From a virus, in the IMG/VR virus record IMGVR_UViG_3300042881_001722, positions 1 to 24,206 of that record: a stretch of DNA of 24,206 nucleotides; one strand, given 5' to 3'. Made by a program: the position numbers and the translations under genes. Below are positions 2,190-9,403 of the stretch, piece after piece. The notes below the pieces were generated by a model that saw only the letters and a program-made list of their open reading frames with translations, did no database searches and had not been told where the DNA came from. Positions within the stretch are counted from its first letter, which is position 1. The number at the start of each line of letters is the position of its first letter.

Positions 2190-2453
2190 CTATCGGTGGA
2201 CATCCACCAAGTTAATCAAATGCTCTATTGAAAACTTGACAATATATGTCAACTCACCGCACACGATAATGGTCAACGGCTTTTTTGGTGTGCTGCGATT
2301 GTCAGGCATCATGCAATCAATTTTGTACAAACATACCGGAAATGTCGGCTCTTGGTACAAATCAACTTCGGAAGGTGCAATCCCCATTTCATAAAGGGCA
2401 TCTTCCATTTCATCTCCTGCGATTACTTCCAAACATAACGGAGTGTGAAACAT
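2190..2453 (-). CDS. Hypothetical protein, 87 aa, last gene of the minus-strand cluster
   Basis: The ATG (bases 2453-2451) overlaps the stop of the phosphoesterase gene by one base (TAATG), which chooses this start over a longer frame that would run back into that gene. The first half is acidic (EVIAGDEMEDALYEMG) and the second half alternates hydrophobic and basic residues (KPLTIIVCGELTYIVKF). No family is recognised. Coupling to the metallophosphoesterase suggests a shared function. Confidence 0.55.
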   Translation of the reverse strand: MFHTPLCLEVIAGDEMEDALYEMGIAPSEVDLYQEPTFPVCLYKIDCMMPDNRSTPKKPLTIIVCGELTYIVKFSIEHLINLVDVHR

Positions 2454-3460
2454 TAGTATACTCTCCCTTCTATAATGCGGTAATTTTCTACGTGGAAATT
2501 TCGATTTGGCAGCACGGTCACGATAGCACCCCCATGATTTTGTTTGATGTAGCCGTAGGGGTTGTATTCGGGTGTAAGTGTACAATGACATCCAGTTGAG
2601 AAACAAACAATCTCATCGCCTTTCAGGTTGTTTTCGTGGTGGCTGGATGTTTGGTGGTGGTGTCCGATAAGCAGCGAACTTTTCGCCCTCATAAATGCAC
2701 CCCTTGCCGGGTTAACGGGAGCCATGATTGACTTTTGAAATTCGTGACCATGCAGGATGTCCAACTTCCCTGCCTTTATTCTTTCCCGAAACACCACTTT
2801 GATGTCGTACTTTTTCAAGTGCAGTTGTTCTTCAAGGGTGATACCATCCAAATCTTCAATGGCACGGGCATTGCTTAACAAATAGTGGCGCATCCTTTCT
2901 TCGTGGTTACCGAACTTGTACCAAATCGGAATGGTTGGAAATTCCTCACGTAGCAACTGGAAGAAACTGCGTGTCATTATCAATTCCTCACGGATGCTTG
3001 GCCGTTTGGTTTCCTGCAAAAATCTGCTCACCATGTACATATCAATAATGTCACCATTCAGCACAATCCCGGTAATGCCTTTTTCTTTTCCATATTCAAG
3101 TGATGCTTGGATTGCAAGTGGGTCATGCTCCGGAAAGTGAATGTCGGACATGACAAGGTACTTTCCTGATGGCAGCACCACATCCTTTCGGACTGGCAAT
3201 TTGGTGTAAAGGCCAAACTTTTTCAGGCCTTCTTCGATGGTAGATTTACCGGGCATATTTTCGCTGTGTTTTTTTGCGTACGAATTACTACCCATTGAAC
3301 CTGTGGCTGCTCTTATTTGCTTTCGTACCGCATCCACGTTCGGCCATACTCCGGGGTTTTGTTCGTAAATTAACTTGGCGAGTGTTTGTTTTGGGAGCAT
3401 CAGCTGCCCATCCATCATGTGTTGCTGCATGATAGATTTGACGATTTCAATTTTAGTCAT
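2453..3460 (-). CDS. Calcineurin-like metallophosphoesterase, 335 aa
   Basis: The full set of metallophosphoesterase motifs is present in order: D-x-H (SDIHFPEHD, from residue 105), GDxxD (GDIID, 136-140), GNHE (GNHEER, 174-179), the histidine motif HGHEF (237-241) and GHxH (GHHH, 266-269). These residues bind two metal ions and hydrolyse phosphate esters. The first ~90 residues are a basic, helical region that may bind nucleic acid or place the enzyme on DNA. In phages such enzymes may process DNA ends or cyclic nucleotides; the substrate cannot be read from this sequence. The gene is the first of a two-gene unit preceded by a hairpin and the CTACTTTTATA motif at 3466-3476. Confidence 0.9.
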   Translation of the reverse strand: MTKIEIVKSIMQQHMMDGQLMLPKQTLAKLIYEQNPGVWPNVDAVRKQIRAATGSMGSNSYAKKHSENMPGKSTIEEGLKKFGLYTKLPVRKDVVLPSGKYLVMSDIHFPEHDPLAIQASLEYGKEKGITGIVLNGDIIDMYMVSRFLQETKRPSIREELIMTRSFFQLLREEFPTIPIWYKFGNHEERMRHYLLSNARAIEDLDGITLEEQLHLKKYDIKVVFRERIKAGKLDILHGHEFQKSIMAPVNPARGAFMRAKSSLLIGHHHQTSSHHENNLKGDEIVCFSTGCHCTLTPEYNPYGYIKQNHGGAIVTVLPNRNFHVENYRIIEGRVY

Positions 3461-3465
3461 CTATC

Positions 3466-3536
3466 TATAAAAGTAGTTAGCCCCTGCGATTGCTAACATA
3501 CACCAAAAAGTCGATGAATGCTAACAAGGCAGGGGC
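3466..3536 (-). promoter_or_regulatory. Hairpin plus CTACTTTTATA motif upstream of the phosphoesterase gene
   Basis: The gap of about 100 bases holds GCCCCTGC (3480-3487) facing GCAGGGGC (3529-3536), and GTTAGC (3476-3481) complementary to two GCTAAC copies (3492-3497 and 3520-3525). Different hairpins could therefore form in turn. On the minus strand the structure is followed by CTACTTTTATA (3466-3476), five bases before the ATG. It may be a terminator for the genes upstream, a promoter, or both; the same motif precedes three other genes in the window. Confidence 0.5.
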
Positions 3537-3563
3537 AATATACAACATTAAACCAAATACCAT

Positions 3564-3746
3564 CTAATTTGTCAGGGCTGTGCCGTTTAATTCATCCTGC
3601 CACACCCTTATTTTGAACCACTCATCTACGCTGGGGATGTCATCAGGCATTTGGGTGTAATCGTAGGGATGTGCTTCTGTGGCTTCATCCTCGCATGGTG
3701 GCAGCCATTGTTCTATTGACTTGGGGGTTTCTCTTTTATTCAGCAT
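3564..3746 (-). CDS. Hypothetical small acidic protein, 60 aa
   Basis: I choose the ATG at 3746 because AGGAG lies seven bases upstream, inside the end of the preceding gene, which it overlaps by 11 bases. The protein is acidic, with a Trp-, Pro- and Asp-rich middle (EAHPYDYTQMPDDIPSVDEW). No domain is recognised. It is the last gene of the recombination cluster before the hairpin at 3480-3536. Confidence 0.6.
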   Translation of the reverse strand: MLNKRETPKSIEQWLPPCEDEATEAHPYDYTQMPDDIPSVDEWFKIRVWQDELNGTALTN

Positions 3747-4140
3747 GACCAATCTCCTTTAATGCAATGGTGTCACTTCCTGCCACATACACAGCAGGTT
3801 GAATTATATCCCCATCATCGGTAACCGGCAACACCCCTTTTTCTTCGGACTTGTATGCCCACTTTGCCATATCTTCAACGCTTGCAAGTTGGTTTTTTGC
3901 AACAACCCATTCATCCAAATGGTCAAACTTCCACCGACCTGCACCAGAACGACACTGGATTTCAAAGCCCATGTGCTGAAATGTCTTGCCATACATCTGT
4001 GCTTCGTTTATGGCCTGTGATTGTATCTGCTCCTTTGCCGCTTTGATTTGCTTTTCAATGCGGGTGAGGTGGCAGAACGCATCCAAAGCGGATGCGTTGC
4101 CTTCCTCAACTTCAAATAATAAATTCACGATGTCCATCAT
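3736..4140 (-). CDS. Hypothetical recombination-cluster protein, 134 aa
   Basis: ATG at 4140 overlaps the stop of the Rad52-family gene by four bases. The N-terminal half (residues 1-50) is helical and likely coiled coil (EKQIKAAKEQIQSQAINEAQ). The middle (FQHMGFEIQCRSGAGRWKFDHLDEW) looks like a short beta region. Proteins of this general shape accompany single-strand annealing proteins in many phages, and some of them protect DNA ends or inhibit host nucleases. That role is inference from position only. Confidence 0.6.
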   Translation of the reverse strand: MMDIVNLLFEVEEGNASALDAFCHLTRIEKQIKAAKEQIQSQAINEAQMYGKTFQHMGFEIQCRSGAGRWKFDHLDEWVVAKNQLASVEDMAKWAYKSEEKGVLPVTDDGDIIQPAVYVAGSDTIALKEIGHAE

Positions 4141-4598
4141 GGCTTCAATATTATTACTTCCTTGAAGTTACCGAGATTAACCCACTCCACCAGCTTGGTC
4201 AGTTTGTCTTGCGCCCAGTCAGGGATGTACTTGTCGCTGCACTCAATGAATACCTTGGGGTAATCGTACAGGCATCGGCCCAAACCGAACTGAACGGCAG
4301 CCCTTTTCATTGCATCCGATATTCCACCCTTTTCAGGTTCGATATTTGTCTTGGATGCACCATCTTCCCGGTAGATTGTTTGACCATCTACGTTCACAGT
4401 AAGGCGGCAAATAAAGCCATTGCCTATCTCCCTGAACTCCGATGTCCAATTTGTCGGCCCGAAAGCAGCGTCAAAGCGTTGCATTACGCATCTGTTGTTA
4501 ATGTACGGCACGACAATCATTTTGCCTGTGCTGGTGACTGATTGCACCCGCCATTCAATCTCGTTTGGCTGAATAGGTGCGGTTAGTGTTTCATTCAT
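4137..4598 (-). CDS. Rad52/Rad22-family single-strand annealing protein, 153 aa
   Basis: The N-terminal segment (IEWRVQS, then RFDAAFGPTNW) and the signature at residues 91-114, including GGISDAMKRAAVQFGLG and the following R-x-L-Y-D-Y-P, match the Rad52/22 family core. It anneals complementary single-stranded DNA during phage recombination and replication, probably with the SSB encoded upstream at 5498-5833. At 153 residues it is little more than the annealing core. A weak Shine-Dalgarno (AAGGAC) precedes the ATG. I see no exonuclease partner within the cluster. The assignment is firm on the conserved segment. Confidence 0.85.
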   Translation of the reverse strand: MNETLTAPIQPNEIEWRVQSVTSTGKMIVVPYINNRCVMQRFDAAFGPTNWTSEFREIGNGFICRLTVNVDGQTIYREDGASKTNIEPEKGGISDAMKRAAVQFGLGRCLYDYPKVFIECSDKYIPDWAQDKLTKLVEWVNLGNFKEVIILKP

Positions 4599-4639
4599 TG
4601 TCCTTGGAATATTAAAGTGTTTGTCTTGATTTTGCCTTG

Positions 4640-4864
4640 TTATTTTAAATTGTCCGTGTGGATTGTACCAAAAATCCTGATTAAGGTTGGCAGAATTTCA
4701 GCAGGGATGCTGACGCATTTGCGGCCTTCGGCTGTCGGGCTGAACTCCTGAAATAAATAAACGGTGTCGCTGTCATCTTCCCAGTCAATGCGGTAAATAA
4801 CATCATCGTGTTCGAATTTGGCAGAGTAGCTGCCTGTGTGTGTGACTTTTATTTGTGTTTCCAT
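4640..4864 (-). CDS. Hypothetical protein, 74 aa, transcribed from its own promoter
   Basis: The ATG lies four bases after a TATATTTG box, so its mRNA should start at or next to the start codon. The product has alternating beta-type residues (QIKVTHTGSYSAKFEHDDVIYRIDW) and a helical end. No known domain is recognised. It heads the transcription unit that continues into the Rad52-family gene (41-base gap). Confidence 0.65.
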   Translation of the reverse strand: METQIKVTHTGSYSAKFEHDDVIYRIDWEDDSDTVYLFQEFSPTAEGRKCVSIPAEILPTLIRIFGTIHTDNLK

Positions 4865-4868
4865 GATG

Positions 4869-4899
4869 CAAATATAGTATAGATTTTTATATTTTCAAA
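4869..4899 (-). promoter_or_regulatory. Bacteroidota-type promoter (TTTG-N19-TATATTTG)
   Basis: On the minus strand TTTG (4899-4896), 19 bases, then TATATTTG (4876-4869), four bases, then ATG 4864. This is a perfect match to the -33/-7 consensus of Bacteroidota primary sigma promoters. The predicted transcription start is at or beside the ATG. Confidence 0.85.
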
Positions 4900-5069
4900 C
4901 TTTCTGCAATTTTTTTTATCAGGTCATCCGAAATCGGTTCAGCGTTAAATCCTTTCTTCCGATATTTTTTCAGGGTTTTTTCAAGTTCGTCATCAGGCAC
5001 TGGCTCAAAGGACATCATTTGGTCTTTCCAATACACAACCGTTTTATATCCCCTTGTTTCAGTTGACAT
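4887..5069 (-). CDS. Hypothetical small charged protein, 60 aa
   Basis: Overlaps the upstream gene by 11 bases. The protein is rich in Lys, Glu and Asp with amphipathic helices (DDELEKTLKKYRKKG and DDLIKKIAESLKI). No membrane segment, signal or known domain. The end of the gene contains the -33 box of the next promoter (4896-4899). Confidence 0.6.
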   Translation of the reverse strand: MSTETRGYKTVVYWKDQMMSFEPVPDDELEKTLKKYRKKGFNAEPISDDLIKKIAESLKI

Positions 5070-5253
5070 TCACAATCTCAAAGGCCGTGTCAATTACCTG
5101 TTGCTCTTTTTTGCTCTTGTATTTGCTGGGATTGTTCAGGGCCTTAATCACGGTGGCATAACTTGCCACACCTTTACAGGCATCAACAACCTGCATCTTC
5201 ATCCCTTTACGTGCGTGGATTAAAAAGTGTATACGTTTTTCTTCGTGTGTCAT
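5059..5253 (-). CDS. Small HTH-like protein, possible phage regulator, 64 aa
   Basis: ATG at 5253 overlaps the previous stop (ATGA). Residues 20-58 (MQVVDACKGVASYATVIKAL, then NNPSKYKSKKEQQVIDTAFEI) resemble a helix-turn-helix with a recognition-helix-like SYATVIKAL followed by a helical end, as in small Cro or LacI-type N-terminal DNA-binding modules. DNA binding is inference from pattern. As a member of the early operon it could control the early promoters. Confidence 0.5.
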   Translation of the reverse strand: MTHEEKRIHFLIHARKGMKMQVVDACKGVASYATVIKALNNPSKYKSKKEQQVIDTAFEIVNVN

Positions 5254-5498
5254 TTCGTTGCGATTTTTAATAAAATTAGATATCCGATAAGGTCATTGAG
5301 TGTGTCTTCATCAGGTGCTTCCATCCCGGTTGTTTTGATGCGGCTCAACTTGTCATCAATGCGGACAAGCAACTGCTCTGTTGTGGATGCCTTGCTGAAA
5401 ACCCGCACCGGTTCTAGTGCGGAGTTTCCATACTTAGCATTTTTTGCGATAAGCATGTTGCAAATGTCATCGCAAGTTTCAATTATTTGCATTCTCAT
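5250..5498 (-). CDS. MazG/DUF1599-like all-helical protein, 82 aa
   Basis: The layout KNAKYGNSALEP, then EQLLVRIDDKLSRI, then DEDTLNDLIGYLILLKI follows the pattern of DUF1599 and related all-alpha NTP pyrophosphohydrolases: a KxxDYG-like turn, a helix with LxR/KxDDKLxR and a final DxxxDLIGY helix. In phages such proteins are thought to trim nucleotide pools or relate to DNA modification. It is shorter than cellular MazG, so it would work as a dimer or tetramer. The start overlaps the SSB stop by one base. The family assignment is moderate. Confidence 0.6.
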   Translation of the reverse strand: MRMQIIETCDDICNMLIAKNAKYGNSALEPVRVFSKASTTEQLLVRIDDKLSRIKTTGMEAPDEDTLNDLIGYLILLKIATK

Positions 5499-5833
5499 CA
5501 GAAGGGCAGGTCATTTTGTTCATTTTCCATTTGGGCAGCATAGTCATTTTTGAAGTTTTCCATGATGCCGCCCTTGTCAGCTTTGAAAAGATTTTCTTTG
5601 CTTACATTTTTGTTAGTTACATTATTGTAACTTTTCGCACCCCCCACATAGGTTGCAGGTTTCTTGGCTTCCCGTTCTTCTTTGGTTTGCGACAGGGCAA
5701 TGTAATGGGTTTCTCCGAACTTTCCTTCGGCTTTGCGTTCAGCACATACGAGCTTGATGTACTTCTTTCCGTTCTTGGCGGTGGTGATTGCCTCACTGGG
5801 CAGGTCACTTAAACATATATCGAGTATTAACAT
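5498..5833 (-). CDS. ssb: Single-stranded DNA-binding protein with acidic tail, 111 aa
   Basis: The N-terminal ~70 residues alternate beta-strand-type segments (MLILDICLSDLP, KNGKKYIKLVCAERK, ETHYIALSQT) as in a small OB fold. The C terminus is Asn/Asp/Glu-rich and ends in NDLPF, the acidic tip with which SSBs recruit partner proteins. It would coat single-stranded DNA at the phage replication fork and hand it to the Rad52-family protein. The gene has its own promoter, whose -33 box lies inside the end of the DnaA-like gene. The symbol is given by function, not by close sequence match. Confidence 0.7.
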   Translation of the reverse strand: MLILDICLSDLPSEAITTAKNGKKYIKLVCAERKAEGKFGETHYIALSQTKEEREAKKPATYVGGAKSYNNVTNKNVSKENLFKADKGGIMENFKNDYAAQMENEQNDLPF

Positions 5834-5837
5834 GGTG

Positions 5838-5868
5838 CAAATATAGTTATTTAAATCTGTTCTGCAAA
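5838..5868 (-). promoter_or_regulatory. Bacteroidota-type promoter (TTTG-N19-TATATTTG) for the SSB unit
   Basis: TTTG (5868-5865), exactly 19 bases, TATATTTG (5845-5838), then CACC and ATG 5833. Same geometry as the promoter at 4869-4899; it predicts a leaderless mRNA. Confidence 0.85.
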
Positions 5869-6306
5869 GTTTTGATAAGCATTTTTCACCGCTTCCACCT
5901 TCCGGGCAAATGATTTATCAAAAGTCATCAGGTTGTCCACCGTTTCAACGCTGTGTATCATTGTGCTATGGTCACGGCCACCGCATATTTGCCCGATTTT
6001 CTGCAACGATAACGAAGTTTTATGCCGCAAAATCCAAATGAATATCTGCCGCAATTCCAACACCTCACGTTTACGGGCTTTCACCTTGATAAATTCGGGC
6101 TGATAGTACGGAAATACCGACCTGATTGCAAGGTGTGTGGCCTTGATATGCTCATCATCCTTGTCAATGTCCTGTACTTTCAGCACGGTTTCCAATTCCC
6201 TAATGCGGATTTGCTGGTGCCTGATTACTTCTTTCATGCGGTCAATTTCACTTTGACGAAATGTTGTCCGGCTGTTGTGCTGTGGTGCTTTGATTGTTAT
6301 TCTCAT
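5851..6306 (-). CDS. DnaA domain IV (C-terminal DNA-binding) protein, 151 aa
   Basis: Residues 84-119 match the DnaA C-terminal domain: LRQIFIWILRHKTSLSLQKIG followed by the signature GGRDHSTMIHS (109-119), which in DnaA reads the TTATCCACA box. There is no AAA+ ATPase domain; the N-terminal ~50 residues are a predicted coiled coil (MKEVIRHQQIRIRELETVL). The protein could therefore bind DnaA boxes without ATP control, acting as a phage origin-binding protein or as a competitor of host DnaA. It is encoded next to the helicase gene, and a perfect DnaA box lies at 9086-9094. Transcribed from its own promoter just after the helicase gene. Confidence 0.85.
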   Translation of the reverse strand: MRITIKAPQHNSRTTFRQSEIDRMKEVIRHQQIRIRELETVLKVQDIDKDDEHIKATHLAIRSVFPYYQPEFIKVKARKREVLELRQIFIWILRHKTSLSLQKIGQICGGRDHSTMIHSVETVDNLMTFDKSFARKVEAVKNAYQNFAEQI

Positions 6307-6310
6307 GGTG

Positions 6311-6341
6311 CAAATATAGTTTAATTATTTATATTTAGAAA
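6311..6341 (-). promoter_or_regulatory. Bacteroidota-type promoter (TTTC-N19-TATATTTG) for the DnaA-like gene
   Basis: TTTC (6341-6338, one mismatch to TTTG), 19 bases, TATATTTG (6318-6311), CACC, ATG 6306. It overlaps the last codons of the helicase gene. Confidence 0.75.
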
Positions 6342-7570
6342 ATATATTCAACGGTTTTACCCATAAAATTGCATTGCAGCGTTCCTGTCATCCCGTTACG
6401 GCACTTGCTGATAATCAATTCAGCATCTTCAAGTTCGGGTGGGTTGCCGCCATTCTTCTGTGCTTCATAATAATCAGGTCGGTAAGGGAATAACACCGTG
6501 TCCGCATCCTGTTCTATCGCACCAGACTCCCGTAGGTTCGCTAATTTTGGGCGGCTGTTGCCTTCTTCTGTTCCCCTATTAAGTTGGGATAATGGCATTA
6601 CGGTACATCCGCATTCTTTGGCAATCAGTTTGCATTGCCGGGATATGTTTGCAATTTCCTGCTCCCTGTTTTTACCGCCTGTGGATTTGACCAACTGCAT
6701 ATAATCAATTATTACCAGCGTGGGTTTTACCTTCATCGTCTTAATTCGGGTTTTTATTTGAGCAATGTCCAGCATGGTGCTGTCTTCGATTTCAAATTTG
6801 TAGTCAATGAGCAGTAATTCACGGGCAATGTTTTCCAATTCAAATTCATTCACATCAGCGTTGCGGACTTTCAGGTTGTCCACCCGGCCCAAAGATGAAA
6901 GTATGCGGTCAGCAAGTTGTTCTTTGCTCATCTCCATGCTAAACATTATAACCCTGCCACCCAGCTTTGCATGAGCAATACCGATGCTGACTGCGAATGC
7001 TGTCTTACCCATTCCGGGCCGACCTGCAACCACCACATTTTCACCGGGAACAAACCCCCCGATGTACTTATCTAATTTTGTAAACCCAGTTGGCAGTCCA
7101 ATGGTTTTGATTTCGGACTTGCTTCGCTTTTCCAAATTATCAAAGCGGTCACCGAGTAGATTAATCAGGTCAACAGCTTGTCCGTTTTCGTTCAGTTGTA
7201 TTTCATCAATAGTTTTTTGAACTTCCGACATGGACTGCATTATTTCACTTCCGTTGGTCAGGTCATTGACAATTTTTGTCAAGTCAATAGTCAGGGTTTT
7301 GCGTATGTATTCCTGATGCAACATTGAAACCAACCGAGTAATGCTTTCACCTGTGTAGTAGTTGTTCAGCCCTGCGATGTCCATTGCCATGTCACGGTGC
7401 TTCATTACCACAGCCACGTTGTCAATATGCTCATTGTTAAGGTACATTGCCTGAATGGTCAAACATAGGGTGCGGTATTTTGGTACGGTAAACCATTCGC
7501 TGCGTACTGTTGCGGTTAAATCCAGCTGCTTACCTTGCAACCACGTTCCGAGAATTTGTTGTTCTATCAT
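6335..7570 (-). CDS. dnaB: Replicative DNA helicase, DnaB family, 411 aa
   Basis: Two-domain DnaB layout. The N-terminal helical domain (residues ~1-90) starts MIEQQILGTWLQGK. After a linker comes the RecA-type motor: Walker A GRPGMGKT (183-190), MFSMEMSKEQLADRIL (209-224), Walker B VIIDYMQL (286-293), PLSQLNRG, LRESGAIEQDADTVLF and SKCRNGMTG. It would unwind DNA ahead of the phage fork as a hexamer, loaded by the DnaD-like protein encoded just upstream, whose stop overlaps this ATG (ATGA at 7570-7567). It is slightly shorter than the cellular enzyme (about 450-500 aa). No primase gene appears within the window. Confidence 0.95.
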   Translation of the reverse strand: MIEQQILGTWLQGKQLDLTATVRSEWFTVPKYRTLCLTIQAMYLNNEHIDNVAVVMKHRDMAMDIAGLNNYYTGESITRLVSMLHQEYIRKTLTIDLTKIVNDLTNGSEIMQSMSEVQKTIDEIQLNENGQAVDLINLLGDRFDNLEKRSKSEIKTIGLPTGFTKLDKYIGGFVPGENVVVAGRPGMGKTAFAVSIGIAHAKLGGRVIMFSMEMSKEQLADRILSSLGRVDNLKVRNADVNEFELENIARELLLIDYKFEIEDSTMLDIAQIKTRIKTMKVKPTLVIIDYMQLVKSTGGKNREQEIANISRQCKLIAKECGCTVMPLSQLNRGTEEGNSRPKLANLRESGAIEQDADTVLFPYRPDYYEAQKNGGNPPELEDAELIISKCRNGMTGTLQCNFMGKTVEYIF

Positions 7571-8226
7571 TGTAAAAAGTTTTCTTTTGGTGTTCGGTAA
7601 ACTTCTGCTGTAATTTTCTTGCTGTCAGAGAATAGCCAATTTTTTGCGGTAAGGTATAGTGACCTTTTGTTTGCAATGCCTTTCCAGTTTTCTGCCCTGT
7701 CAAGAATGTCATCTATTTGTTCAATGGTATAGCCATCAGCAATTAGCTTGTCAACTTCTGCCCGTGTGATTTGTAAATGAAGAATTTGCCTATATATCTC
7801 TACATTCTTTTCATTCTTATAATTCTTATCATTCTTGTTTGTTGTCAGTTGTTTGTCAGTTGATTGTCGTTTGATTGTCGTTTGAGTGACGTTTTGTTTG
7901 TCACTTTCTTCATCAGCAATTTGGTAACATTCATATTTACAGACACTTACAAGGGTAAATTTGTTTGTCGTTTTTACTTCAATTTCACCTGTGTTTTCAA
8001 ACTTTTTTAGCAATGTTCTAACAGAACGCTGTGAAATGCCCGTGGCTATTGACAAGTGGCCTATTGAAGTAATGAGCTGACCACGTTTAACATCGTGACC
8101 TTGCCACATTTTGTCAGCGTGGTTTGCCTTCAAAATTATGTATAGAAATAAATGCACGGCTTCCGAGTTGCCGAACCATTGCCATTCTATAAACTTCCTG
8201 TGTATCTTAATCCATCCGTTACTCAT
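7567..8226 (-). CDS. DnaD-type phage replication protein (winged helix), 219 aa
   Basis: I place the start at ATG 8226, which overlaps the upstream stop by eight bases and begins with the family-like MSNGWIKIHRKFIEWQWF. Residues ~1-100 hold a winged helix (GQLITSIGHLSIATGISQRS, then VRTLLKKFENTGEI) ending in a beta-wing (TTNKFTLVSVCKYECYQ), as in phage replisome organisers. The low-complexity middle (Asn-, Lys-, Thr-rich) is a linker. The C-terminal part (ITRAEVDKLIADGYTIEQID, with YLTAKNWL) is helical. It probably binds the origin and loads the helicase encoded next. A longer in-frame extension to 8325 overlaps the upstream gene and is unlikely. Confidence 0.8.
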   Translation of the reverse strand: MSNGWIKIHRKFIEWQWFGNSEAVHLFLYIILKANHADKMWQGHDVKRGQLITSIGHLSIATGISQRSVRTLLKKFENTGEIEVKTTNKFTLVSVCKYECYQIADEESDKQNVTQTTIKRQSTDKQLTTNKNDKNYKNEKNVEIYRQILHLQITRAEVDKLIADGYTIEQIDDILDRAENWKGIANKRSLYLTAKNWLFSDSKKITAEVYRTPKENFLQ

Positions 8227-8422
8227 CTTCAAGTTTTTTAATTCTTGTTTCACATTCTGCCAAAAAATCAATGGCAGCAGATTTTTCAAGTTCAATGACA
8301 AAGCTTTGGTTCTTATTTTTATCATAAAATATCAAAGCAAAAAACTTGTTGTCACCTGAACGTGCTGGTGTGAGTTCTTTCAATGGGTCTGTTTTGTCAA
8401 TAAATACGGTTCTTTTAGGCAT
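8219..8422 (-). CDS. Hypothetical protein, 67 aa
   Basis: Overlaps both neighbours by eight bases. It begins with a basic segment (MPKRTVFIDKTDP), has a beta-type core (NKFFALIFYDKNKNQSFVIE) and ends in a charged helix (FLAECETRIKKLEDE). I do not recognise it. The position in the replication operon suggests an accessory to replication. Confidence 0.6.
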   Translation of the reverse strand: MPKRTVFIDKTDPLKELTPARSGDNKFFALIFYDKNKNQSFVIELEKSAAIDFLAECETRIKKLEDE

Positions 8423-8627
8423 GGTTATTTTCTTTAAGGGTTAATTTTTTACACTGGTTGTAATAGATGATTTGCAGGTCAAGTTTCATCCAAAGGTACT
8501 CACATTGTAATAACGTAAGCACCTTGTTTTCTCGCCTGTAATTTTCATACTCTTTGCGCAGTTCAAGTTCTGCGATTTGCTCGTCACAATATGCGACTGG
8601 TAGTGGTGTTGGTTTGTAAATATTCAT
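8415..8627 (-). CDS. Hypothetical protein, 70 aa, first gene after the structured leader
   Basis: I choose ATG 8627, right after the U tract of the hairpin described at 8628-8700. The frame stays open a further 30 codons to an ATG at 8717, but that extension would translate the hairpin itself. The 70-residue product is helical with many Tyr, Glu and Leu (EQIAELELRKEYENYRREN; LQCEYLWMKLDLQIIYYNQ). No domain is recognised. If the longer start is used the protein has 100 residues beginning MKRIQLTPTQVDSRL. Confidence 0.55.
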   Translation of the reverse strand: MNIYKPTPLPVAYCDEQIAELELRKEYENYRRENKVLTLLQCEYLWMKLDLQIIYYNQCKKLTLKENNHA

Positions 8628-8700
8628 AAAAAAAACACCCACACTTTCGATAGTTGAACCCGGTCTGGACACTAACCGACTATCTACTTGCGTGGGTGTT
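8628..8700 (-). terminator. Long stem-loop plus U8 at a start codon: attenuator-like leader element
   Basis: On the minus strand AACACCCAC (8700-8692) pairs with GTGGGTGTT (8642-8634), GATAGT (8684-8679) with ACTATC (8654-8649), and CGGT (8678-8675) with ACCG (8664-8661). The structure is followed by eight Ts (8635-8628) and at once by ATG 8627. This is a good intrinsic-terminator shape between a promoter (8765-8796) and the replication operon, so it can act as an attenuator. GGGTTCA in its loop (8661-8655) is exactly complementary to TGAACCC upstream in the leader (8745-8739). Confidence 0.65.
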
Positions 8701-8803
8701 AATTGTATTCGTTTCATTTGTCCAATCTTCTCGGCAGGGGGTTCAGTCCTGTTATTCCGATATGCAATTATATAACAAAGATTTTAGATTTCCAAATTTA
8801 TTT
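8701..8803 (-). promoter_or_regulatory. Candidate promoter and leader of the replication operon
   Basis: TTTG (8796-8793), 20 bases, TATAATTG (8772-8765) matches the Bacteroidota consensus with one mismatch. The predicted start near 8760 gives a leader of about 130 bases before ATG 8627, unlike the leaderless promoters nearby. The leader holds the TGAACCC that complements the hairpin loop downstream. I see no other gene in this stretch. Confidence 0.5.
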
Positions 8804-9022
8804 TTATTCGTTGCAGTATTCCTGACGTTCGTGATAATCAATGTCGCTTTGTTCGTCACGTTCCCATTCAATAGTTTGGGTGATGTACCATTGCCATCCC
8901 TTTTCCCATTGTTTGAAGTCATCGGAGTTCAGTTCAAAAGGGTTTTCGCCTTCGGTTTCGTAGTAATTAAACTGCTGACTGGCTATCCAGCCCATTTCAA
9001 AAGGTGTTTTTGTGTTTTCCAT
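8804..9022 (-). CDS. Small acidic protein resembling ribosome modulation factor, 72 aa
   Basis: The residue pattern GWIAS near the N terminus, then ENPFELNS, then WEKGWQWY follows the RMF-type spacing (G-x-x-A, N/C-P-Y/F, W-x-x-G-W). RMF dimerises and silences ribosomes in gammaproteobacteria. This protein is acidic rather than basic, so ribosome binding is doubtful; small RMF-like proteins of unknown function are common in phages. It is the first gene of the minus-strand early region, expressed from a promoter four bases before its ATG, which suggests a very early role. The long plus-strand frame opposite is not a gene. Confidence 0.6.
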   Translation of the reverse strand: MENTKTPFEMGWIASQQFNYYETEGENPFELNSDDFKQWEKGWQWYITQTIEWERDEQSDIDYHERQEYCNE

Positions 9023-9026
9023 GCTG

Positions 9027-9057
9027 CAAATCTAATATACTTTTCTATACTTGCAAT
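9027..9057 (-). promoter_or_regulatory. Bacteroidota-type early promoter (ATTG-N19-TAGATTTG)
   Basis: ATTG (9057-9054), 19 bases, TAGATTTG (9034-9027), CAGC, ATG 9022. This is the first promoter of the leftward early region and has the same four-base gap to the ATG as those at 4869, 5838 and 6311. Confidence 0.8.
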
Positions 9058-9085
9058 ACTTTTTGTTAAATTATTTGTGTTAAAG

Positions 9086-9094
9086 TTATCCACA
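9086..9094 (+). other. Consensus DnaA box in the divergent AT-rich gap, candidate replication origin
   Basis: TTATCCACA at 9086-9094 is the exact DnaA box. It lies in the only divergent intergenic region of the window (9023-9133), which is very AT-rich, between leftward replication genes and rightward genes. The phage encodes its own DnaA domain IV protein at 5851-6306, so this may be the origin or an operator. Only one perfect box is seen. Confidence 0.5.
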
Positions 9095-9121
9095 ATTTAA
9101 TAAAATAGACCTTTTACGAAT

Positions 9122-9133
9122 AAACTTTGTGCC
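9122..9133 (+). promoter_or_regulatory. Possible rightward promoter before the HNH gene
   Basis: AAACTTTG (9122-9129) resembles the -7 box TAnnTTTG and, like the leftward promoters, lies four bases before the start codon (GTG 9134). I see no good -33 TTTG at 19-20 bases (TTTA lies at 9096-9099), so this is a weaker call. Confidence 0.35.
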
Positions 9134-9403
9134 GTGAAGAAGCATACCAAGGTATATCTTGACCATTTCGGCTATGACAAGACCGATTTCATCCCTTGTG
9201 AGGTATGTGGCGCACAAGCGGTGGACATTCACCACATCGAAGCCCGGGGTATGGGTGGAAGCAAACACGCTGATGTGATTGAAAACTTGATGGCCCTATG
9301 CAGAAAAGACCATGCCCGGTATGGGGATAACAAGTCATTCAAAGATTGGCTCAAAAAAGTTCACGCACTTAAACTTGAACAGGCGCACCGAGATACTGAT
9401 TGA
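9134..9403 (+). CDS. HNH endonuclease, 89 aa
   Basis: Starts at GTG 9134. A zinc-type CxxC (Cys22, Cys25) is followed by DIHHI (His33-His34), Asn51 in IENLMALC and C-x3-H (Cys56, His60): the beta-beta-alpha metal HNH fold. HNH proteins near phage terminases often help cut concatemers during packaging. Here the gene is first in the rightward unit, about 4 kb before the small terminase, so a packaging role is possible but unproven; it could also be a homing-type or restriction nuclease. Its end overlaps the next gene by 29 bases. Confidence 0.85.
   Translation: MKKHTKVYLDHFGYDKTDFIPCEVCGAQAVDIHHIEARGMGGSKHADVIENLMALCRKDHARYGDNKSFKDWLKKVHALKLEQAHRDTD

Follow-up and report, generated by a model that had tools for sequence, protein, structure and literature searches.

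A conserved single DnaA box in a divergent phage gap as a candidate operator for a stand-alone DnaA domain IV protein

The stretch of DNA analysed here, called the window, is a viral record of 24,206 bases (IMG/VR record IMGVR_UViG_3300042881_001722, positions 1 to 24,206). Leftward genes span 2453-9022 and rightward genes begin at 9134, leaving a divergent gap of 111 nt (Table 1). On the leftward side, profile matches identified a Rad52/Erf annealing protein, a 151-aa protein with a DnaA domain IV (P151), a DnaB helicase and an O/DnaD-like initiator. The rightward operon includes genes for an HNH endonuclease, a DNA methyltransferase, a glycosyltransferase and the large terminase. Within the gap, between the leftward 72-aa ORF and the GTG start codon of the HNH ORF, lies TTATCCACA, the sole perfect copy of the DnaA box in the window. 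This bears out the perfect box in a divergent gap that the original prediction had described. The gap had also been placed next to leftward replication genes, but these begin about 0.7 kb further left and the immediate neighbour is the 72-aa ORF. A box-like word, TTTTGCACA, is also present at 2111 and 22240. The copy at 2111-2119 lies at the end of an ORF (1454-2128) whose counterparts in relatives have it too, and it is probably kept by the protein sequence.

Table 1. Features of the divergent gap and of the neighbouring leftward and rightward genes (positions in the window).
Feature	Position	Strand	Evidence or remark
P151, stand-alone DnaA domain IV, candidate box reader	5851-6306	-	Pfam Bac_DnaA_C 3.2e-16
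-7 element TATATTTG	6311-6318	-	just upstream of the P151 start
DnaB-like replicative helicase	6335-7570	-	Pfam DnaB_C 1.2e-74
Lambda-O/DnaD-like initiator or helicase loader	7567-8325	-	PHROG 2514 4.7e-30; PHROG 345 (O-like) 3.8e-13
Candidate iteron origin: direct repeats of 11 bp that break frame (consensus CAAMYGACAAN)	7842-7894	-	inside the initiator gene
72-aa ORF of unknown function, first gene of the leftward early operon	8804-9022	-	adjoins the gap in relatives too
Leftward early promoter, -7 element TAGATTTG	9027-9034	-	perfect Bacteroidota TAnnTTTG; -33 ATTG at 19 bp
Leftward promoter, -33 element ATTG	9054-9057	-	consensus scan; TGCAA conserved among relatives
Extended conserved site AG-TTATCCACA-AT	9084-9096	+	column frequencies, 8 clusters
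DnaA box TTATCCACA	9086-9094	+	perfect or degenerate box in 79/79 distinct clade gaps
Rightward -7-like element AAACTTTG	9122-9129	+	A.AAACTTTG block conserved; 4 nt before the GTG start
HNH endonuclease ORF, heading the rightward operon	9134-9403	+	Pfam HNH 9.5e-07

P151 matched Bac_DnaA_C (PF08299) over residues 70-123 with 59.5 bits (cut-off 31.5) and a PHROG of replication initiation proteins with 1.1e-06, and no AAA+ match was found in the Pfam search, in agreement with the DnaA domain IV lacking an ATPase domain that had been proposed. In the AlphaFold model (mean pLDDT 86), a long N-terminal helix (residues 18-64) is followed by the DnaA domain IV, and the best Foldseek matches are complexes of the DnaA DNA-binding domain with DNA (3pvp and 1j1v; rmsd 1.4 and TMt 0.90 for 1j1v). 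In the alignment with 1j1v, residues R78, R86, Q87, R94, D112, H113, S114 and T115 of P151 fall on R399, R407, Q408, K415 and D433-T436 of E. coli DnaA, the residues with which that protein contacts the box. By this numbering, R399, R407, Q408, D433, H434 and T436 are retained, K415 is replaced by R and T435 by S. A full DnaA initiator would have an AAA+ domain III and a domain I, whereas only domain IV was matched. Judged by its sequence and the missing AAA+ domain, P151 belongs with the DnaA domain IV proteins but is not a DnaA initiator.

The number of boxes expected by chance is about 0.3 copies of TTATCCACA in the whole window (first-order Markov model) and about 0.0014 in the 111-nt gap (0.3 x 111/24206). 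A lone perfect box per 24 kb would on these figures be unremarkable and near chance, and it is the conservation across relatives that is decisive. A total of 51 viral loci from IMG/VR encode P151 relatives, and profile searches together with queries from other family members added diverged phages, the viral relatives of P151 numbering roughly 470. Exactly one TTATCCACA was found in 10 of the 11 long relatives searched whole, in this gap wherever it could be placed. The eleventh is without TTATCCACA; its locus starts only about 1.5 kb upstream of P151, so that the contig seems to stop short of the gap. Since the relatives have exactly one perfect copy, in this same gap, the box is regarded as real and above chance.

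Among 93 distinct regions upstream of the HNH gene, the site is present in 79 and absent in 14. The sited gaps comprise 70 with the perfect box and others with TTTTCAACA (3), TTATCAACA (3), TTATAAACA (2) or TTGTAAACA (1), all at the aligned position. All 14 site-less gaps belong to sister phages with P151 homologues of 30-40% identity, and a strict rule by which P151 implies a box was rejected on account of these phages. In loci L111-L146, where identity is about 50% for P151, 60-83% for HNH and 36-77% for the first leftward gene, every locus that covers the gap has a perfect or degenerate box immediately ahead of the HNH gene or of an insertion preceding that gene. In some relatives other genes replace the HNH ORF or come before it, and one or more other genes lie between site and HNH gene in 17 of the 79 gaps. 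Since the site is retained despite these insertions, it serves the transcription unit and not the HNH gene as such.

This conservation also bears on a role as a decoy of host DnaA, which had been proposed for P151. According to this explanation, P151 would be a decoy or antagonist that titrates either DnaA boxes or the DnaA of the host, with the box in the phage being incidental. A DNA-binding domain without ATPase could conceivably be dominant negative on oriC, but an incidental box is not expected in 79 of 79 gaps at a fixed spacing, nor can a single box titrate host DnaA. With one box per genome the decoy role is implausible, and the probability left to it is minimal.

Promoters matching the Bacteroidota consensus TAnnTTTG (PMC7366714) precede leftward genes at 9027-9034, 6311-6318, 5838-5845 and 4869-4876 (minus strand), all in the form TAnATTTGCAnCATG and three of the four with a TTG at 19 bp. 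A Bacteroidota host is therefore likely. No relative of P151 was found among 84,980 genomes searched, so there is no host oriC or DnaA for comparison. In all four TAnATTTGCAnCATG promoters the -7 element lies 4 nt before the start codon, and leaderless phage messages from these genes are possible; such messages are said to be rare in Bacteroides (PMC7366714). The rightward element AAACTTTG departs from TAnnTTTG in that its T is missing, and no -33 TTG or TTTG was found by the consensus scan at 17-22 bp from it. This absence is weak evidence, since Flavobacterium johnsoniae shows no identifiable -33 motif (PMC7366714).

The position of the box relative to both promoters was compared in 51 distinct aligned gaps. 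The distance from the box to the AA(A/C)TTTG of the rightward -7-like element is 28 bp in 41 gaps and 29 bp in 10, and that to the leftward -7 element is 49, 59, 60, 62 or 69 bp. The site form is always AG/AC-TTnTnnACA in the 79 distinct clade gaps, where the regular expression demanded a box-like word at 28-29 bp and matched every gap, so that there was no unexplained remainder. The major-base frequency, weighted over 8 clusters at 80% identity, is 0.98 for the AG, 0.92 for the box and 0.63 for the upstream flank and the spacer, the sequence between box and -7-like element being no more conserved than background. A fixed spacing to one promoter over an unconserved spacer is what a protein touching RNA polymerase needs, and a site at a fixed position relative to a promoter, as found in 51/51 gaps, is characteristic of a DnaA-type transcriptional regulator. 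Together with the variable leftward distance, the constant 28-29 bp suggests that the box controls the rightward promoter.

The box-plus-element arrangement was also seen outside the family, in about 15 contigs that have no family genes. The spacing varies there (26-30) and the boxes are clustered in several, so these contigs were taken as chance or ordinary DnaA-box regions. In addition, an enrichment of DnaA boxes in other P151-matching phage records was dropped, as the clusters in MT835860, MT837747 and MT837016 are full-length host DnaA genes with oriC. Full-length bacterial dnaA is present in L178, L180, L270, L272 and other GenBank MT83xxxx records named 'Bacteriophage sp.', several with clustered DnaA boxes nearby, and these records are probably bacterial chromosome fragments.

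The box is centred 44 bp ahead of the start codon of the rightward operon. Should TTTG-N4-ATG promoters yield near-leaderless messages, it would stand at about -44, and class II activators sit close to this position. The chances are judged to be about even that the rightward (middle/late) promoter has the box as its one regulatory operator, with P151 as the putative reader and regulator. The leftward operon, with its canonical TAnnTTTG promoters, would make P151 early. The protein would then bind the single box just upstream of the expected -33 position, most likely contact RNA polymerase, and activate a rightward promoter in which a -7 motif is present and a -33 motif missing. A variant is that it represses this promoter from there. 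Regulation is the best supported of the three roles first suggested for P151, but the spacing links the box with the rightward promoter and not with the leftward early one. P151 as the reader, the sign of the regulation and the position of the origin are all what we infer.

In the repressive variant, P151 at the box would occlude RNA polymerase next to the -33 position and keep rightward transcription silent early. The 28-29 bp spacing suits this too, and DnaA represses its own gene through a box between two promoters (PMC8203912). However, a repressor present throughout the early phase would need a further signal to release the late genes, and the rightward promoter looks weak, not strong, which makes this explanation quite improbable. 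Against the operator model speaks the place of the P151 gene among replication genes.

Whether P151 is the reader of the box was approached through its contact residues. Q408 and R415 are found in every sited gap with P151 in view (60 gaps), and P151 is encoded in every locus that combines the site with 6 kb or more of leftward DNA. In the site-less sister gaps, position 415 is Y in 14/14 and position 408 is H in 13/14, and the recognition loop ahead of RDH has one residue fewer. This correlation fits P151 as the reader, yet it represents a single evolutionary split. It is weakened by the L111-L122 group, in which P151 reads GNRHHTT (D433H) and TTATCCACA is still perfect. Near-identical P151s (L114 and L118) coexist with differing site variants, so fine co-variation is absent.

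The same data are relevant for a reading of the box by host DnaA, which would time the rightward operon to the host DnaA level while P151 competes or has another replication job. The site has the textbook form of a DnaA box, variants such as TTATCAACA are within DnaA tolerance, and it stays perfect in L111-L122 despite the changed P151 signature. Moreover, DnaA acts elsewhere as activator and repressor, lambda included (PMC8203912). On the other hand, the site-less sisters are exactly those with altered P151 contact residues, which is unexpected if host DnaA alone matters, and every locus with the site and enough DNA has P151. Host DnaA as the reader is thus considered unlikely, though with a probability that is far from negligible.

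P151 had also been proposed to bind the gap as a replication origin, where it or host DnaA would act at an AT-rich unwinding region. The gap is divergent, AT-rich and near the replication module, the P151 gene adjoins that of the helicase and is close to that of the initiator, and the cumulative GC skew is lowest at about 9 kb. This minimum falls where the coding strand changes, so that replication and coding direction are inseparable, and GC skew was set aside as an origin test. A DnaA-box origin is a cluster of boxes beside an unwinding element, whereas each near-complete relative of 30-32 kb has a single perfect box. In addition, P151 lacks an AAA+ domain for opening DNA, and an origin leaves the fixed spacing to the promoter element unexplained.

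A better candidate was found in the O/DnaD-like gene, whose true start is probably at about 8226. Its period-11 score is 29.5 against a maximum of 18.5, and none of 2000 synonymous-codon shuffles reached it. The 11-bp repeats are not protein repeats, since 11 is not a multiple of 3. Direct repeats in an initiator gene that the protein sequence does not explain are the mark of a lambda-O-type origin. Frame-breaking 11-bp repeats are also present in L089, L094, L077 and L085, and none was found in the L096 initiator allele by the same period-11 test. Other 11-bp types occupy the same place in relatives (GAAACGCAGAT; AACAAACAACT) and are swapped along with the initiator, at least three unrelated types among close phages, and the box is constant in the site-bearing clade. 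The helicase is exchanged as well, with a DnaB type in the window (6335-7570) and an unrelated primase-helicase type in L077 (4812-6443), in phages that are otherwise syntenic.

Replication would most likely start at these iterons, 1.2 kb from the DnaA box, and the gap ranks as the second-best origin candidate on the sequence evidence. With a lone box, a P151 without ATPase domain, and iteron types that swap independently of the box, P151 as an origin binder at the gap is less likely, and an origin there is improbable.

When phages encode DnaA-like fragments, these are usually classed with the replication initiators, whereas here the comparative geometry gives P151 one specific target and argues for gene control. 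In the operator model, an initiator's DNA-binding domain would have been reused as a transcription switch. The fuller proposal, that the DNA-reading domain of the host's DnaA was turned into a dedicated one-site early-to-late switch, the replication-start signal becoming a phage operator and site and protein diverging together in the sisters, is put forward tentatively, with somewhat less than even chances. A 151-aa protein and a 13-bp site would make a simple two-part system for studying how DnaA domain IV on its own communicates with the RNA polymerase of Bacteroidota. To our knowledge, late control in Bacteroidota phages is little studied. None of the freely accessible papers searched describes a stand-alone DnaA domain IV of a phage as regulating through a defined site.

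P151 resembles the bacterial DnaA domain IV (PF08299; 1j1v, 3pvp) in fold, DNA-contact residues, the signature GGRDHST and the probable site TTATCCACA. It differs in being phage-encoded, in having a long N-terminal helix in place of domains I and III (oligomerisation and AAA+), and in its one site per genome. Rhizobium phage RHph_TM3_3_3 also has a stand-alone DnaA domain IV (EVB37_086, 152 aa) beside an O-like (DUF1376) gene, but its host group differs and TTATCCACA is absent from the 15.6 kb examined. In the lambda origin, iterons lie inside the initiator gene O. The candidate origin here is similar, with iterons in the linker of an O/DnaD-like initiator gene next to a DnaB-type helicase, whereas its 11-bp iterons are of several exchangeable types and the DnaA box is 1.2 kb off and does not co-vary with them. 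Finally, DnaA is itself a transcription factor, which regulates its own gene and activates lambda transcription through the beta subunit of RNA polymerase (PMC8203912). A DnaA box beside a promoter is common to these cases and to the present one, in which promoter control is presumed. Unlike them, the presumed reader here is a phage protein without a nucleotide switch, and the single box is phased to a Bacteroidota-type promoter.
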